Source: an uncultured Dorea sp. | GTDB lineage: Bacteria > Bacillota > Clostridia > Lachnospirales > Lachnospiraceae | Assembly: GCA_945870325.1 (NCBI GenBank) | Contig: CAMBRQ010000006.1 | Span: 1-64,000 of the forward strand | Length of the DNA: 64,000 nucleotides | Direction: 5' to 3' | Shown here: one piece after another, positions 21,665 to 64,000 of the stretch | Layout of the letters: every line of letters starts with the position of its first letter | How positions within the stretch are numbered: position 1 is the first letter of the stretch | Translations under genes and position numbers: made by a program | Notes under the pieces: generated by a model | What the model saw: the letters and a program-made list of their open reading frames with translations, nothing else | The model's database searches: none | What the model was told of the DNA's origin: nothing

Positions 21665-21721
21665 AAAAATGCCCTCCTTGTCTCCGATTGAAAACAAAAA
21701 GGGCTTGAAGCCAATCTATAA

Positions 21722-21812
21722 CGCATCCCTACGTTGGCATTATCCACATCAGGTTATGGGTCGAAGTTGACAACTTCCTCTCAGCCTATTCTATAAGCTC
21801 CCCTTGTTATCA
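21722..21812 (-). promoter_or_regulatory. TPP riboswitch (THI box)
   Basis: Read on the minus strand, GGGGAGC, GGCTGAGAGGAAG, CGACCC, ACCTGAT and GGATAATGCCAACGTAGGGA occur in the order of the thi-box aptamer. The GGCTTCAAGCC hairpin after it (about 21698-21710) near the thiT ribosome site is the likely expression platform. Thiamine pyrophosphate would turn thiT off. Confidence 0.95.
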
Positions 21813-22033
21813 ATCTTATGTAGTTTGTCCAGTCATTATCATATACATGCTGCTTGGAAATGTCAACTCCATTACATCAGATTATCTTTCTTACCTTGCA
21901 GGCATCTCTCTAATCAATCAATAGGTCTGTAACTTGTATATTTCAATTCTGCTAAATTTGCGAGATTCGCGTCATTTGAAAAAGCGCACAAAATATCTAA
22001 TGAAATCAAGCCAAACTTTGTTAAAAATTTATC

Positions 22034-56750: not shown

Positions 56751-56787
56751 GCACCACTCACGCTTGCAACAATTCAAAGGAGACCAC

Positions 56788-58194
56788 ATGCGCAGCACAT
56801 TGTATCTGAAATTTGCAATTATCTACATAATATTCGGCTTCCTAAGCCTCTTTACGGTTGCCACACTGACATACAACCTCACCGGCAGCCCTTTAGAGAC
56901 TCATGTAGCCACTTCCATGTATAAAGAGGCGAATCTGGTAGCAGGCAGTTACCTGCCCTCTTATTTCTCTGAGCAGTTAACTACCAGCGATGTTCACCTG
57001 CAATTAATCGGAATGATGAACCAGTTGGATGCTTCCGTATGGTTCGTAGATAAAGAAGGCGACATGCTCTCGTCTGCTGCCGCCGATAACTACCCCTCAT
57101 CACCGTCCATGATCGAGGAATTCAATCCGGCAGAAAGCGGCAGTAAGCAATATCAGATTGGAAATTATCATGATTATTTTGAAGAAGATGTAATTACCGT
57201 AATCGCTCCGGTTATAGATGGCTATTCCCCAAGCGGGTATCTGCTGATTCACAAGTATGTCTCAGACATCAACGAAGTTCAGTACATCCTGCTCCGTGCG
57301 GCGATGATTACATTGATTGTCATCTATCTTCTGTCCTTTATGATACTTCTCGCCTTCCAGTTCTTCGTGTACCGTCCGCTGCACAAGATTACGGAAGCCG
57401 CAACCCAGTATGCGTCCGGCAACCTGGATTACGAGATTCCTGTTGATACGGAGGATGAGATGGGTTACCTATCTGCATCGCTGAACTATATGTCTTCCCA
57501 GTTACGGGATATGGAGGATTACCAGAAGAAATTTGTGGCAAATGTCTCCCACGATTTCCGCTCGCCTCTGACCTCTATCAAAGGATATGTGGAAGCCATG
57601 GTAGATGGAACGATACCTTCGGAATTACATGAAAAATATCTCAAGATTATTCTCTTCGAGACGGAGCGCTTGACGGACCTTACCCAGGATCTGCTGGCTC
57701 TCAACGAGTTCGACACGAAGAATCTGCTTCTGAACAAAGAAGTATTCGATATTCACGAGATGATCAAGAATGTGGCAGCCTCCTTTGAAGGTACTTGCAC
57801 GCAGAAAAAGATATCCATTGAATTAATATTTGCCGCCAAATCACTGAACGTCAATGCAGACAAACGAAAAATCCAGCAAGTGCTGTACAACCTGCTGGAT
57901 AATGCAATCAAGTTCAGCGAACCAGATTCTGCCGTTACCATCGAGACAACAGAGCGCGGTGATAAAGTCTATACCTCCGTGAAAGATGACGGCATCGGAA
58001 TTCCACGCGGATCTCTGAATAAGATCTGGGAACGCTTTTATAAGTCTGATCTGTCTCGCGGGAAGGATAAGAAAGGGACTGGATTGGGGCTTGCGATTGT
58101 GAAAGAGGCGATTCAGGCACATGGGGAGAATATTAATGTGGTTAGTACCGAGGGGGTAGGGACGGAGTTTATCTTCTCGTTGCCTAAAGGTTAG
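56788..58194 (+). CDS. sensor histidine kinase
   Basis: The 468-residue protein has a first membrane helix at about 8-30, an extracellular sensor of about 130 residues (VDKEGDMLSSAAADNYPSSP region), a second helix near 175-200 (MITLIVIYLLSFMILLAFQF), a HAMP, the H-box FVANVSHDFRSPLTSIKGY near 250 and ATPase boxes VLYNLLDNAIKFSEPDSA, DDGIGIPRGSLNKIWERFY and GTGLGLAIVKEAIQAHG. It is the partner of the response regulator just upstream. It starts after AAAGGAGACC. The sensor domain resembles dCache/PAS-like forms but the ligand is unknown. Confidence 0.93.
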   Translation: MRSTLYLKFAIIYIIFGFLSLFTVATLTYNLTGSPLETHVATSMYKEANLVAGSYLPSYFSEQLTTSDVHLQLIGMMNQLDASVWFVDKEGDMLSSAAADNYPSSPSMIEEFNPAESGSKQYQIGNYHDYFEEDVITVIAPVIDGYSPSGYLLIHKYVSDINEVQYILLRAAMITLIVIYLLSFMILLAFQFFVYRPLHKITEAATQYASGNLDYEIPVDTEDEMGYLSASLNYMSSQLRDMEDYQKKFVANVSHDFRSPLTSIKGYVEAMVDGTIPSELHEKYLKIILFETERLTDLTQDLLALNEFDTKNLLLNKEVFDIHEMIKNVAASFEGTCTQKKISIELIFAAKSLNVNADKRKIQQVLYNLLDNAIKFSEPDSAVTIETTERGDKVYTSVKDDGIGIPRGSLNKIWERFYKSDLSRGKDKKGTGLGLAIVKEAIQAHGENINVVSTEGVGTEFIFSLPKG

Positions 58195-58327: not shown

Positions 58328-59140
58328 TTAATTTTGAAACAGCCACTCTTCGCATTCGTCTGTATAATACCCAGACATCCACTCTATAATCTCATTCTTT
58401 TCCTCTATACTCATCTTTATCTTCTGCATCTGCTTTTCATCTGCATTCTTCGCCTGATATACCCAGTATCCTATCCCTCGGAGATACTGGTATCCATATG
58501 CAACATAATAATCTGAAAGCACCGAACGTTCCGACAGATAGCGGATCCATTCTTCTGTTGTGATTGGAATCTTCTGATTACTTACCCGATATTTCACATA
58601 CCGTGCAAATTCTACCAGAAACTGTCTCATAGGAATCAATAAAAATACAGAGAAAATATCGGCAGCGATTTCTTCCATCTTCATTGGACACATTGGCATA
58701 ATAAAATAATTTTCATAATATTTCTCAGCATCATAATTCAACAGATATTGAACAATCTCATTGGCAATTGCATAACGTCTGGAAGAAGGTGGGGCCATAC
58801 TGTCCACATAGATTGTAACACTTTTTTGCCCCGTATATGAATCTTTACGAATCACAAGCTGACCAATTTTTCTATTAAGCGCTCGAATGTTTTCATTTTG
58901 GAATTCATTAAGATTCCTTTCCTCAATCTCGATTCCCAACTCAGTTGCAAGCGTCTCTATATCCACGGGAAAAAAACATCCTTCTTCTCCGAGAATACTA
59001 ATAATTAACTTTTCGGCAAACAGACCCACCTTCCAACAATATTTAATTATATGCCCTGCATTGCCGATCTCCTCTTTCAGAATTCGGGAAATTTCATCTA
59101 TCAATTCTTTTCTCTCCGGTCTCATATGAAGTGTTGGCAT
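58328..59140 (-). CDS. ImmA/IrrE-like protein with a degraded HExxH site
   Basis: The 270-residue protein keeps the ImmA/IrrE frame: FFPVDIETLATELGIEIEER at about 56-75, the strand SVTIYVDSMAPPSSRRYAIA, and the second helix MEEIAADIFSVFLLIP (155-170), where the family has ExxAxxFAxxLLxP. Between them the zinc site that should be HExxH reads NEIVQ (127-131), so both His are lost. It should not cleave. The C terminus (180-270) has no known fold. A proper ribosome site (AAAGGGAGAA) and 36-bp spacing put it in an operon behind the 1509-residue HD/HSP90 gene. Its role may be binding rather than proteolysis. Confidence 0.7.
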   Translation of the reverse strand: MPTLHMRPERKELIDEISRILKEEIGNAGHIIKYCWKVGLFAEKLIISILGEEGCFFPVDIETLATELGIEIEERNLNEFQNENIRALNRKIGQLVIRKDSYTGQKSVTIYVDSMAPPSSRRYAIANEIVQYLLNYDAEKYYENYFIMPMCPMKMEEIAADIFSVFLLIPMRQFLVEFARYVKYRVSNQKIPITTEEWIRYLSERSVLSDYYVAYGYQYLRGIGYWVYQAKNADEKQMQKIKMSIEEKNEIIEWMSGYYTDECEEWLFQN

Positions 59141-59176
59141 CTTTTGTCTATTCTCCCTTTATCTATTTATTGTTTC

Positions 59177-62100
59177 TCATACTTTCTTTTCAAAATATTC
59201 CAAATCCGGCAGATCATTATATGGGTTGCGAAAGGCATTCATTTCAATCAATGTGAATACATCAAACAACTCCTCAAAACATCTTAACCAGCAGTTCCAT
59301 AAATGCTTACTCAGTAAACCAGAACTATTATGCAGCGCAATATAATCCAGAATCATCTGTTGCTTATAGAATTCCTTGCTTCTTTCATTTTTCAGTATCT
59401 CCAGATACCTTATCTTATATTTTGCTGTTTCCGAAGCGTCTGCCATATACTCCCGCTTGATCACATACATCCATCCCTTGACAAACAAAGCATAGCGTTT
59501 TTCTGGAAGGGAGGTCAGTAACATTGACAAATCTTCGCCATAATATTCTCCAATAACTTTCAACAAAATACAAGCAATAATGTAACTACACTGCTCTCTG
59601 AATTCTGTAATATTTTTCAATTGAAAGCCCTGCTGCAGGTTATCTTCCGATTGCGATTCTCCCAATTTTCTTATACAATTTAATGTAAAACTACGATACT
59701 CCTCGCGTACTTCAACCATGAGTGGAAGCGCTTGTCTGTTTCCACTTTTCCACCCTTCTTTAAACTGTCCATAAATCTCTATATAATTCTTATGAATATC
59801 AGAATTCTTTTCCTGAATCTGCTTTATCTGTCTGTCTATTTCGCCAGAAGCAATCCAAAACTGGTCAGATAAGTATTTCTCAACATTCAGAATTCCAAAA
59901 AGTTGGTTAAGTTTTTTAGAATTATTCCTCGCTTCCGGAGAATTCATCCTTTCCATTATTGCCTTGAGTTCCTCTGCACCAAACGGAAAGATTAATTTTC
60001 CATAAGACTCCCTTGCCATATATCCCCGTTTTACAAAATAATGAGTATAGGGCAATTCCTTACATTTTAAATACTCCATTTTCTGCCATGCAGGAATAGA
60101 GAATCTCTGAATCCCATATCGCTTTGCATCTTCCAGAATACGCTTTACCACAAGTACCTTAAATGACTGATTCACGAATATAAAGGGGAATATCTTTCCG
60201 CAGATAATATTAATCCTTATATTTCCATCGTCACTCATGAACAATGCCACGGTTGGAATATACTTCAACATCCATTTCAGGAAGTACTGCTGCAGATATT
60301 CCCCCGGACTCATCTCGCCGCTCACACCTGCATCATCCATTCCATAATAGGTTGCAATTTTCAAGGCTCTCTGACCGATTTTCTGAAGTTTTTCCTCCAA
60401 CTCCTTCTTTTCTTTCGAAAAACTATCTGTAAGAATATACTGTTTTAAAATATCAATGGGATCTTCATGATCTTTTACCTCTCTTTTAATATAAATCGGT
60501 GTCAGAAATTGCTTCCATGGCGCGGAGACGTTTTCACGTTTTGAAACAATCATAAAACGATTGTCATTCGAAAAAACATCCGAGAAATTAATCACACCAC
60601 TGGCATATCCTGTCACTTCAGTCATTTTCTGAAGATTTACCTCTGGCCGGTGTTCGATCTTAAACAGCACCGATCTGTCCTGCAATTCATTCTGAAGCCA
60701 TTTCCCATATTCTCTCGCACATTCTAATGCTTCATTCCAACAGCATCTGGCTTCCTCGCCATTGTCACAACTCAGTCTGAATAATGGGTTGAATTCTCCT
60801 TTTTGTGCAAAGAAAGCCAGCATAGTAATAATCACTATGTTCTCTTTACACAGTTCAATTATCCTTTCTCTTATGTTATCAATTCTACGTCTTATATCAG
60901 CACTTGTAAATACTGTGTTTTGCTGATTGAAGGAAACTATGCCATTACATACCACGGAACTATTATACGCTTCAACTATCTCAGGCAAAGTATCAAATAA
61001 TTCTTTTTTCTGTTTCAGACTGTTTTCAATCCCTTGTGTCACTTCATTCGGTTGGTTTTTATTCATTGCTCTTAGAATTTCATGAACGGATTCCAGCAAC
61101 GGTTCATATATTTCCCGCAGAAAATATACTTTTCCTTTCTCGGTAAACCCTTTTCTGCTTAAATTAATATATTCTCTGGCAAGTTTTCCTTTGATATCAA
61201 TCGACTGAATCAATTCGTTCCCAAAATCCGGAAGTTCTATTTCATCAAGTTCTATCCCTTTATAATATATAAGAACACCTCTGTTTACATCCTTATTTTC
61301 ACAATGTCCATCCAATCTTTCTGTTTCTCTTTGTTCACTTTTCAGGAAATTCTTCATATTGATAATACAAAATGTACATAATTCATTATCCCAGAAATAA
61401 AAATGAGTATTCCAACAATCTAGTAATGCAATAGAACGATCTGTCTTCTCAATCAATATATTTTCACAGTATCCATTATTCTTATAATTATTGGTGTCTT
61501 TCCCCTTATTATAATAAAAGATCCAAGATTTGCCCGACCGATTCCATGCCCTGTCAGTAATTGTATTCTGAACAAACTGATTCAATGTATCATCCTTACA
61601 ACATGAAGTAATATCTTTTAGATCATCGTACCATGTTTTATCCCCTCTCAGATTACATTTTAATCTTTTCAGTTGATTTTTATCAGATAGATTAAGCGGT
61701 ATTACAACCCCTGGAACAGACTCAACCTTCAGATGAATCGGAAAAAGCTGTTCTCCGATCTGCTCGTCCAGATACAATGCCATCTGCGCCAGAAGTTCCG
61801 CAGAGTGGCGCAACGGTCGCAGCACCTCATAGTCCTGATCAAAATAATCCTTTCCGTCCCATGCTGCCGGATACAACTCATGTCGCATCTTTTTCTTCGC
61901 AGGTACAAAGACCTCGAAACAAGTGCCATATGCATCATCTTTTGTGTTAAAGGACTCTCTTGGTTTTACATTAATATATCCTTCATAATAATTGGATTTC
62001 ACTGTTGAGAATGTGACTTCATATTTTTCATTACTTCTCGTAAACGTATAGCATTTGAATATATTCGTTAAGATAAATGCACTCTGTAAACCGATTCCGA

Positions 62101-63706
62101 ATTCGGCTGTAGGTTTCAACCATTCCGGCATGTCCGTAATAATATGGCGGTCTCGTTTCCTGCTGTTTCCCACTTTGGCTATATTAAGTATACTCTCTTT
62201 ATCTATTCCCGTCCCAAAATCTTTAATCCTGACCTTAACTCCATACTGCCATTTCTCTTTATTCTTTTTATTACGCAGATCGATAAAATCCTCTTCCGTA
62301 ATCGGGAATTCATCCCGACGTTCATTCCTTTTGATAATCTGCATTTCAATCTCAATCGGAAATATATCTGTAGATAAAATATTCTCCAGTTCATCCGGAG
62401 ACATCTTTTTTAGTTCATCTCTCGACCGATAATATCCCCAAGTACGAACACATTCCTGCCAATATTGCATTTTACTGGCATCTATGGCATTCTGAAGGAA
62501 TTCTCTCAAAAAGACAAATTGCCCCTTATACACATTAGAACCCTCAAGAATTGCAAATGCCTTACTCTGAGAGATATGAAACTGTGTAGCCACCAGTTCT
62601 TCTGGAATCTGCATTCCATCCAGGTACAGTTTAACAGAATCAACCGTAGGCAATGCCCCACTGAAATTCCTGGGACAAATCAGCATCCAGTTATAACCCG
62701 CTTCTTTCAGGATGCTCTTCAGGATATCACATTCTTTTCTAACCAGACGCAACGCTTCCTGCGAACTACAATCAGCCTCAATGGATATAATGTCAGGCCT
62801 TATGTAAAGTCTCCGGATGGCCTGATGTTTCTCATAATGACGCTCTGAAAGTTCCGGAAAAACGCCGACAAATTCCTTGGTCAAAGGATGAAACCGATCA
62901 TTGTCCATATCCAGAATATCGCCTAATTGTAAAAGTACCGCAACAAAACGAGGATGTAGATAATCAGAGACATATCCGTTATCCTCCTGCGGCAGGTTCA
63001 TAATGTGTTCAAAATCAGAATCTGTATGAAGACCCGCACACTTTGCAATCAGTAAAAATATCCTTTGCGGAATACCCGCCATAGAAAATCCAGTGCCGAG
63101 TTTCTCGGATTTTAAAGTCCACTCAGTCAGACGATCCTCGGACATGTTTCCATGCTCCGTCCGCCTGAAATTAGCAATCAGATGAAGAATTCCATAATAT
63201 ACTGACAGTTTGTCAGCGTACAATTTCTTCATCTGTTCTTCTTTACTATCTTCGTCATCATATTCATACTTTGTCTGCTGAAGCGCTTTTACTGCTTTTT
63301 GAAAAACAACATCATTTTCATCCCCAAGTTCCTTCACCATATCGAGGAACTTTTCATTTTTCACAATCTCTTCCCGATCCGTATGTGTAATAACCATCCC
63401 GATGTCATGAATATAGACTGTATGGAGCAGCATAAAACAATCCGATGCTGACAATTCTCCAATCCTATTCTCTCCCAGAATCATCTCAATGTTATGAAGA
63501 ACCGTATTGGCATGGGACTCATCATGCTTGCTATAAGTTGGAAATGAACTCATAGTTGCTTCAAGAAGCTGTGAAAGCCAGCGTTTATTCTGACACCATG
63601 CATGCCACAGGACTTCATTTCGCTCAGTATGTTTTTCATTCAGATAATGCCTTTCCAATTGCCCTTCTATGGTCAGATGCTTTTTATTTTTCTTTTTCTT
63701 GCCCAT
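59177..63706 (-). CDS. 1509-residue HD phosphohydrolase/HSP90-type ATPase fusion
   Basis: After a Lys-rich start, residues 50-330 form an HD domain: FPTYSKHDESHANTVLHNIE (His 61/65), HTVYIHDIGMVITHT with HD at 100-101, RRTEHGNMSE near 185 and LLQLGDILDMDNDRFHP near 263. Residues 385-600 form an HSP90-type GHKL ATPase: N box FVFLREFLQNAIDASKMQYW (Asn 406), G1 box VRIKDFGTGIDKESI, G2 box PTAEFGIGLQSAF. The remaining 900 residues are unassigned, with no transmembrane segments. Such HD-plus-HSP90 proteins occur sporadically and are suspected conflict proteins; the exact reaction is unknown. GGCAGGAGACA precedes the ATG. It lies between a gene running off the edge and the ImmA/IrrE-like gene. Confidence 0.8.
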   Translation of the reverse strand: MGKKKKNKKHLTIEGQLERHYLNEKHTERNEVLWHAWCQNKRWLSQLLEATMSSFPTYSKHDESHANTVLHNIEMILGENRIGELSASDCFMLLHTVYIHDIGMVITHTDREEIVKNEKFLDMVKELGDENDVVFQKAVKALQQTKYEYDDEDSKEEQMKKLYADKLSVYYGILHLIANFRRTEHGNMSEDRLTEWTLKSEKLGTGFSMAGIPQRIFLLIAKCAGLHTDSDFEHIMNLPQEDNGYVSDYLHPRFVAVLLQLGDILDMDNDRFHPLTKEFVGVFPELSERHYEKHQAIRRLYIRPDIISIEADCSSQEALRLVRKECDILKSILKEAGYNWMLICPRNFSGALPTVDSVKLYLDGMQIPEELVATQFHISQSKAFAILEGSNVYKGQFVFLREFLQNAIDASKMQYWQECVRTWGYYRSRDELKKMSPDELENILSTDIFPIEIEMQIIKRNERRDEFPITEEDFIDLRNKKNKEKWQYGVKVRIKDFGTGIDKESILNIAKVGNSRKRDRHIITDMPEWLKPTAEFGIGLQSAFILTNIFKCYTFTRSNEKYEVTFSTVKSNYYEGYINVKPRESFNTKDDAYGTCFEVFVPAKKKMRHELYPAAWDGKDYFDQDYEVLRPLRHSAELLAQMALYLDEQIGEQLFPIHLKVESVPGVVIPLNLSDKNQLKRLKCNLRGDKTWYDDLKDITSCCKDDTLNQFVQNTITDRAWNRSGKSWIFYYNKGKDTNNYKNNGYCENILIEKTDRSIALLDCWNTHFYFWDNELCTFCIINMKNFLKSEQRETERLDGHCENKDVNRGVLIYYKGIELDEIELPDFGNELIQSIDIKGKLAREYINLSRKGFTEKGKVYFLREIYEPLLESVHEILRAMNKNQPNEVTQGIENSLKQKKELFDTLPEIVEAYNSSVVCNGIVSFNQQNTVFTSADIRRRIDNIRERIIELCKENIVIITMLAFFAQKGEFNPLFRLSCDNGEEARCCWNEALECAREYGKWLQNELQDRSVLFKIEHRPEVNLQKMTEVTGYASGVINFSDVFSNDNRFMIVSKRENVSAPWKQFLTPIYIKREVKDHEDPIDILKQYILTDSFSKEKKELEEKLQKIGQRALKIATYYGMDDAGVSGEMSPGEYLQQYFLKWMLKYIPTVALFMSDDGNIRINIICGKIFPFIFVNQSFKVLVVKRILEDAKRYGIQRFSIPAWQKMEYLKCKELPYTHYFVKRGYMARESYGKLIFPFGAEELKAIMERMNSPEARNNSKKLNQLFGILNVEKYLSDQFWIASGEIDRQIKQIQEKNSDIHKNYIEIYGQFKEGWKSGNRQALPLMVEVREEYRSFTLNCIRKLGESQSEDNLQQGFQLKNITEFREQCSYIIACILLKVIGEYYGEDLSMLLTSLPEKRYALFVKGWMYVIKREYMADASETAKYKIRYLEILKNERSKEFYKQQMILDYIALHNSSGLLSKHLWNCWLRCFEELFDVFTLIEMNAFRNPYNDLPDLEYFEKKV

Positions 63707-63757
63707 ATTGTCTCCTGCCGTTCTTTTTCTTCTTTTTCCTATGTATACAATTAATCT

Positions 63758-64000
63758 TTAACGTTTTTTCTGATTCCCTGATAGAATGTCAGATTCCTTC
63801 TCTATCACGCTCATGTAGTTTTTCTGTAATATATCTACAACAGAAACTGAATTAGACAGGCTCATCCGATTATCATTCTCCATAACTTCCTGGAATCTTT
63901 TCGCGAATTCTTCATATCTTTCATCTTCACGCAAAGCATAACTCATCTCCCTATGTAGATTACATAATGCGAAATACGTAGTGCTCCTCTGTATCAGTTT
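63758..64000 (-). CDS. partial gene at the window edge, C-terminal 80 residues
   Basis: The minus-strand frame is open from the window edge to the stop at 63758. It reads KLIQRSTTYFALCNLHREMS, then RYEEFAKRFQEVMENDNRMS and LQKNYMSVIEKESDILSGNQ, a helical, charged C terminus. An internal ATG at 63946 is possible but the frame continues upstream without a stop, so it is more likely the end of a longer gene. It stops 51 bp before the HD/HSP90 gene and is probably the first visible gene of that operon. No family can be named. Confidence 0.55.
   Translation of the reverse strand, partial: KLIQRSTTYFALCNLHREMSYALREDERYEEFAKRFQEVMENDNRMSLSNSVSVVDILQKNYMSVIEKESDILSGNQKKR

Follow-up and report, generated by a model that had tools for sequence, protein, structure and literature searches.

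The window, that is, the whole analyzed stretch of 64,000 nucleotides (bases 1-64000 of contig C6 of genome G000, which totals 109,420 bases), ends within an operon of four minus-strand genes that may constitute a defense system. In order of transcription they encode a protein of 295 amino acids (aa) with an ADP-ribosyltransferase (ART) fold, a SLATT-like protein of 168 aa, a protein of 1509 aa in which an HD-CE domain is fused to an HSP90-type ATPase and a protein of 270 aa that belongs to the M78 family of CapP and IrrE. The gaps between the genes are, 5' to 3', -4, 51 and 36 bases (Table 1). A first-pass annotation, made from the letters of the window, had described three minus-strand open reading frames (ORFs) in tight order; these are present, and only the gene count has to be raised, to four, as the ART-fold gene lies beyond the window's end.

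Table 1. Positions of the operon's genes and of regions within them (window numbering, or contig C6 where marked).
Feature	Position	Strand	Basis
IrrE/CapP-like (M78) protein, degenerate active site, 270 aa	58328..59140	-	Pfam PF06114; PADLOC capP; structure CapP 7t5t
NEIVQ replacing HExxH, residues 127-131 of the M78 protein	58748..58762	-	Aligned columns
HD-CE domain fused to HSP90-type ATPase, 1509 aa	59177..63706	-	ORF; Pfam domain; GHKL motifs
HD-CE domain, residues 55-327, presumed HD metal-site residues intact	62726..63544	-	PF24391, E 4.4e-38
HSP90 N-terminal plus middle region, residues 385 to about 875	61082..62554	-	
Large-protein C-terminal region, residues about 876-1509	59180..61081	-	Secondary structure; conservation
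SLATT-like protein, C-terminal 80 of 168 aa in the window	63758..64000 (start at C6:64264)	-	
ART-fold protein, 295 aa, first gene of the operon, wholly beyond the window	C6:64261-65148	-	4-base overlap with the SLATT-like gene

The HD domain of the large protein belongs to the Pfam family HD-CE (131.9 bits, against a cut-off of 27). Conservation was read from 116 relatives with lengths of 1300 aa or more, which remained of the 120 listed among 174 matches once four shorter ones had been dropped. Among these, H61, H65, H100 and D101 are kept in 114 (the other two have gaps) and D263 in all 116; we take these residues to bind the metal. The N, G1 and G2 boxes of a GHKL ATPase, as we presume them to be defined, lie at residues 399-411, 495-502 and 534-544, with N406, G537 and G539 kept in all 116 relatives and D496 in 115. 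The HD domain and complete ATPase that had been read from the letters are borne out by the family match and by the conservation of the boxes. Two ATPase models stay under their curated cut-offs: the Pfam HATPase match stands at 0.011, and the NCBIfam HSP90 model PRK14083 gives 1.3e-8 and 33.8 bits, against a cut-off of 455. The protein would be, on these scores, a relative of HSP90, not an orthologue, and its structural model has the architecture of the HSP90 N-terminal and middle domains. Few rows of the comparison go past model residue 588, and the region of the HSP90 C-terminal dimerization domain is barely covered by it; residues 876-1509 are mostly helical and poorly conserved, with no family named for them and little coverage in the fold comparison. 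Hydrolysis of nucleotides by the HD-CE domain is a prediction; the family has reportedly been proposed already as a nucleotide-degrading immune effector.

The 270-aa protein passes the Pfam M78 model marginally (22.4 bits, cut-off 22) and matches the PADLOC capP model at 3e-8; a profile of 31 relatives, set against solved structures, finds CapP nearest (7t5t, E 3e-5), with IrrE at 0.012. The first-pass annotation had seen an ImmA/IrrE frame with NEIVQ in place of HExxH, and this is what the aligned columns give. Because NEIVQ replaces HExxH, the sequence does not allow the protein to be classed as an active peptidase. The alteration is widespread: among 80 aligned rows, some nearly identical (68 of the 78 proteins found plus 12 from the loci described below; P0181 and P0190-P0198 were dropped, being partial or over-long except for P0193, which is of ordinary length), HExxH is intact in 29 and broken in 51, of which 49 have N or Y in first place and two have HExxQ. 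All eight rows of the clade that includes the window protein have N for the first histidine, and the tree requires a minimum of three changes between intact and broken states. The idea of a simple point mutant was rejected, as the broken motif belongs to clades; the histidines are not conserved in nearly all close homologues, the circumstance in which the annotation would have taken this copy for a mere mutant. Two relatives, P0173 and P0177, carry helix-turn-helix (HTH) domains and read HEIVQ.

The first two genes are the likelier effectors. The 168-aa protein scores 34.9 bits with its best SLATT model, for which the curated cut-off is 41, and 3.9e-6 with PADLOC RTasSLATT; because curated SLATT cut-offs are not reached, it is described here, from its sequence, as SLATT-like only. 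The 295-aa protein has an ART fold in its model and matches the PADLOC family RTas1808, while no Pfam or NCBIfam ART family matches it at E up to 1. It carries R109/R112, FTSCS and Q174-x-E176, corresponding to the Arg, S-x-S and E/Q-x-E elements of what we take to be the R-S-E clade motif; five relatives fused to SLATT and six others have E-x-E. Toxins make up nearly all of its model's closest matches among solved structures, and the protein is a predicted ADP-ribosyltransferase. DRT10 defense requires a SLATT protein according to PMC12632851, and PMC7159879 predicts SLATT as a nucleotide-responsive pore. The annotation had cast the large protein as nucleotide-hydrolyzing effector or switch; that protein has an architecture of HSP90 N-terminal and middle domains, and the part of effector falls more readily to the ART and SLATT-like genes.

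The company of these genes is conserved. Scanning with a profile of the large protein found 62 loci in public genomes and two in viral contigs; 17 of these (L003-L019) are of the long type, and the other 47 (L020-L066) mostly encode 900-1300 residues, some being weak or cut. Of the long-type loci, L005, L010, L013, L018 and L019 end too soon; in 11 of the remaining 12, the HD-CE/HSP90 gene is immediately followed by an M78 gene, so that the pair keeps together, as the first-pass annotation had wished to see checked. Distances between M78 proteins are correlated with those between large proteins (r 0.93, reached by none of 5000 permutations; the window and 11 loci, with L008 represented by the first of its pieces). 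As a control, within L003-L066 the M78 profile matches solely beside the large gene. Scattered homologues without the partner, which would have spoken against a functional pair, were looked for and rejected: of 397 genomes from the window's family, the M78 profile matches three (E 1e-8), namely that of the window itself; G194, in which the contig stops 90 bases away from the gene, so that any partner would lie beyond it; and G380, a weak match (2.5e-9) in a genome absent from the eight that match the large protein.

M78 proteins with an intact HExxH adjoin the large gene in L003, L004, L006, L007, L008 and L009, and those with a broken motif adjoin it in the window, L011, L014, L015, L016 and L017. 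Both kinds being found beside the same large gene, the lost motif is an old state in a protein that has kept its position; therefore it is unlikely, as far as sequences can tell, that peptidase activity is needed there. A protein without HExxH would then be a sensor or adaptor. The family offers a natural series from intact to lost HExxH beside one and the same large gene, and so a model for the turning of a signaling protease into a non-enzymatic sensor.

Effector genes are less constant in their arrangement. A SLATT-type gene is near the HD-CE/HSP90 gene in 12 of the 17 long-type loci, on the opposite strand in L007 and after M78 in L011, L015 and L017; the loci without one are L012, which has both flanks, and L004, L013, L016 and L018, which are each short of one flank. 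ART and SLATT form a single ORF in L003, L005, L006, L008 and L014. Because the tree requires at least two changes between ART-SLATT and the other SLATT type, effectors have been swapped among loci. Two further arrangements were seen. The HD-CE genes of L008, L018 and L123 are split into two ORFs, possibly as decayed copies or assembly errors. In L042, L052 and L054, short HD-CE/HSP90 genes come after one gene for a protein of 820-847 aa and another for a small protein; the larger protein has, in L042 and L054, a histidine-kinase-type ATPase and a PocR match (under cut-off in L042), and is perhaps another input to HD-CE/HSP90.

A second line of evidence is a link to REVERSE-TRANSCRIPTASE defense. 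ART is found beside HD-CE in six of the seven family genomes that bear ART, in three settings. The window genome has HD-CE/HSP90 beside ART, with one small gene between. In G148, G246, G370 and G162, ART comes together with a second small gene and a UG24 reverse transcriptase (RT; PADLOC RT_UG24, E 0), the C-terminal part of which is itself an HD-CE domain (E 3e-25, 8e-25, 5e-22 and 1e-20, respectively); the second small gene matches RTas1299 where scanned (L102, L120). In G111, HD-CE is split over two ORFs, which score 27.9 bits, just above the cut-off of 27, and 20.2 bits, below it. None of the four proteins of the window's operon matches an RT in PADLOC or Pfam, and none is a CBASS cGAS/DncV-like nucleotidyltransferase. 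Two neighborhoods of UG24 operons may be recorded here: at L102/L125 (G162:C206), a distinct gene matching the HD-CE/HSP90 profile comes after the RT operon, which already carries an HD-CE, and at L122 (9658-11373) an MzaB-like GHKL ATPase (PADLOC 1.7e-11) lies 263 bases upstream of the ART-UG24 operon.

Distribution is patchy. The large-protein profile matches 8 of the 397 family genomes (E 1e-20) and the ART model 7 (E 1e-8); the HD-CE domain alone is in 28 of 328. In the order, the ART model matched one genome of 392, the window's own. No empty insertion site was found with the operon's flanks. Of 41 genomes, that of the window included, one flank matches 35 and the other 6, and in the five relatives where both match they are on separate contigs. 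On plasmids, partial, distant matches were found in five records, and none to the UG24 RT; one unannotated 7-kb phage record was matched, and a megablast of the L065 gene against E. coli genomes gave no match. Short HD-CE/HSP90 genes do occur in P2-like prophages, where those of L065 and L066 stand between replication gene A and the portal gene; L065, by its ORFs, is the same Buttiauxella prophage as L057. This P2 site is described in PMC9122126 as a hotspot with anti-phage genes.

Selected neighbors were scanned for genes of conflict systems. L007 has a TIR-helicase and a type I methyltransferase in its vicinity, and L035 lies beside a SIR2/ThsA-like gene; PADLOC gave no match among the neighbors in L031 and L042, and a weak one in L054. 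To the annotation's question of whether the genes lie in defense islands, the answer is that some company of the conflict-system kind is present. The helicase at L007 (3801-7304), close to the HD-CE/HSP90 operon, has its TIR domain at the C-terminus.

Upstream of the operon is the gene of a sigma-factor-like protein (Pfam Sigma70_r3), and downstream, on the opposite strand at 56764-58194, a sensor histidine kinase, assigned by eye. The G+C content is 0.378, against 0.429 for the window; a foreign base composition was dropped as an argument because other 6.8-kb stretches go as low as 0.352. Rfam finds no family within or close to the operon at E up to 0.5. Promoter-like sites number 39, where 26.8 are expected, one of them lying about 140 bases before the ART gene, and terminator-like sites three, where 5.2 are expected. 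Elsewhere in the window, a TPP riboswitch lies at 21709-21814 on the minus strand (Rfam RF00059, 62.3 bits).

The likeliest reading of this set of parts is as an anti-phage system of the abortive-infection type, in which the HSP90 clamp would act as switch and the effectors would be the HD, ART and membrane components; on sequence evidence, we hold this reading to have an even chance of being right. All that follows on activities, on what happens in which order, and on signal and target is what we infer from the genes, motifs, gene company and model folds described above. The M78 protein, lacking HExxH, would be a receptor or adaptor, perhaps keeping the single-stranded DNA (ssDNA) sensing of CapP and IrrE, and would pass its signal by contact, not by repressor cutting; the signal, on reaching M78 or the HSP90 region, would bring about ATP-driven closure of an HSP90 dimer, joining or uncovering two HD-CE domains; HD-CE would hydrolyze either a pool of nucleotides or a signal nucleotide; ART, which in relatives shares one polypeptide with the SLATT-like protein, would act with it as a unit, the one modifying a target and the other disturbing the membrane; and the cell would stop or die before the phage matures. 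HSP90 is known as the chaperone that keeps plant and animal immune receptors ready. Should the proposal be true, its N-terminal and middle module would here be the switch itself.

A number of observations weigh against it. L012 has HD-CE/HSP90 and both flanks, and neither M78 nor SLATT; among loci L020-L066, several of which end close to the gene, SLATT is absent in 36 of 47 (near in 11) and M78 in all 47. The neighbors counted with the M78 and SLATT profiles had in part gone into building them. For the second SLATT type, the Pfam check covered a single protein, that of L015, which is over the cut-off for DUF4231 (3.6e-14) and below it for SLATT_1 (7e-5). The window's own SLATT-like protein, besides scoring under curated cut-offs, has one hydrophobic segment over threshold (residues 37-55) and a second stretch seen only by eye, where SLATT expects two transmembrane helices. 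G374 has ART with no HD-CE in view, and G103 and G291 have HD-CE genes of RT length (1083 and 1088 aa) with no ART (RTas1808) match.

There are two chief rivals: that M78 is a regulator, and that the operon as a whole is a toxin-antitoxin-like module set off by stress. On the first, M78 would only regulate expression of the operon in the manner of CapP or ImmA, sensing DNA damage and controlling a repressor, with no effector role. Its nearest solved relatives, CapP and IrrE, are activated by ssDNA and cut repressors according to PMC13373217 and PMC10904395; there are also the HTH domains of P0173 and P0177, and in L006 an HTH ORF lies 10 bases before ART-SLATT (HTH_3 below cut-off). Such a role is nevertheless unlikely: 51 of the 80 M78 rows have a broken catalytic motif, and a search with one sequence, itself a weak test, found no L006-like HTH gene in other loci of at least 3500 bases. 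A repressor gene as a part of every operon was dropped from consideration, the HTH ORF being upstream only in L006.

On the second, ART and the membrane protein would be a toxin, not directed at phage, that HD-CE/HSP90 and M78 restrain and, on DNA damage, release. The toxins that crowd around the ART model among solved structures fit this. HSP90 can hold client proteins. Relatives of M78 sense DNA damage, according to the sources on CapP and IrrE. Most HD-CE/HSP90 loci, however, have no ART nearby, and neighbors of the phage-hotspot and defense-gene kinds point elsewhere; we rate this role improbable. That HD-CE is a counter-enzyme, reversing or processing the products of ART (cutting ADP-ribosylated nucleotides, for instance), would suit their adjacency in three settings (HD-CE/HSP90, UG24 RT with HD-CE and the split HD-CE of L123) but is most improbable, as HD-CE is the commoner of the two (28 of 328 genomes, against 7 of 397 for ART).

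Returning to the HSP90-switched abortive-infection system, a wider suggestion may be attached to it, one that we regard as possible but doubtful: ART and HD-CE would be a portable two-enzyme effector cassette, available to RT (UG24) or HSP90 switches; a retired CapP-type protease would have become the receptor for HSP90; and ART would act on, or gate, a SLATT-type pore to which it is fused in relatives. In any case, the shared ART/HD-CE pairing joins two types of defense with unrelated switches and offers a direct way of asking what UG24 and HD-CE/HSP90 systems have in common.

How much of this is familiar? The first-pass annotation knew of no described system with this exact pair, but HD-CE/HSP90 modules were reportedly described as predicted immune systems by Nicastro et al. 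in 2023 (Nucleic Acids Res. 51:11479), with HD-CE (PF24391) and HSP90 modules, as are present here; the kind is therefore counted as known. Among the matches listed by a literature search that left most subscription papers uncovered, there was no paper on a set of these four genes, on ART paired with HD-CE in both UG24 and HSP90 systems, or on a CapP-like partner without HExxH. With CapH-CapP and IrrE/PprI, the operon shares an M78 domain, placed about as far from the N-terminus (103-177 in the window's profile, 76-153 in CapP); HExxH is present in those systems and lost in the window's clade, and, unlike CapH-CapP, the operon has no small upstream ORF that reads, by eye, as a repressor. With the SLATT effectors of DRT10, it shares a small SLATT-like protein beside an enzyme gene, although the window's is below curated cut-offs and in five relatives ART and SLATT are one ORF. 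With the UG24 DRT, it shares an ART of the RTas1808 family in first position and an HD-CE domain, which in UG24 forms the C-terminal part of the RT; RT and RTas1299, both present in UG24, are absent from the window's operon, and HSP90 stands in the place of the RT.

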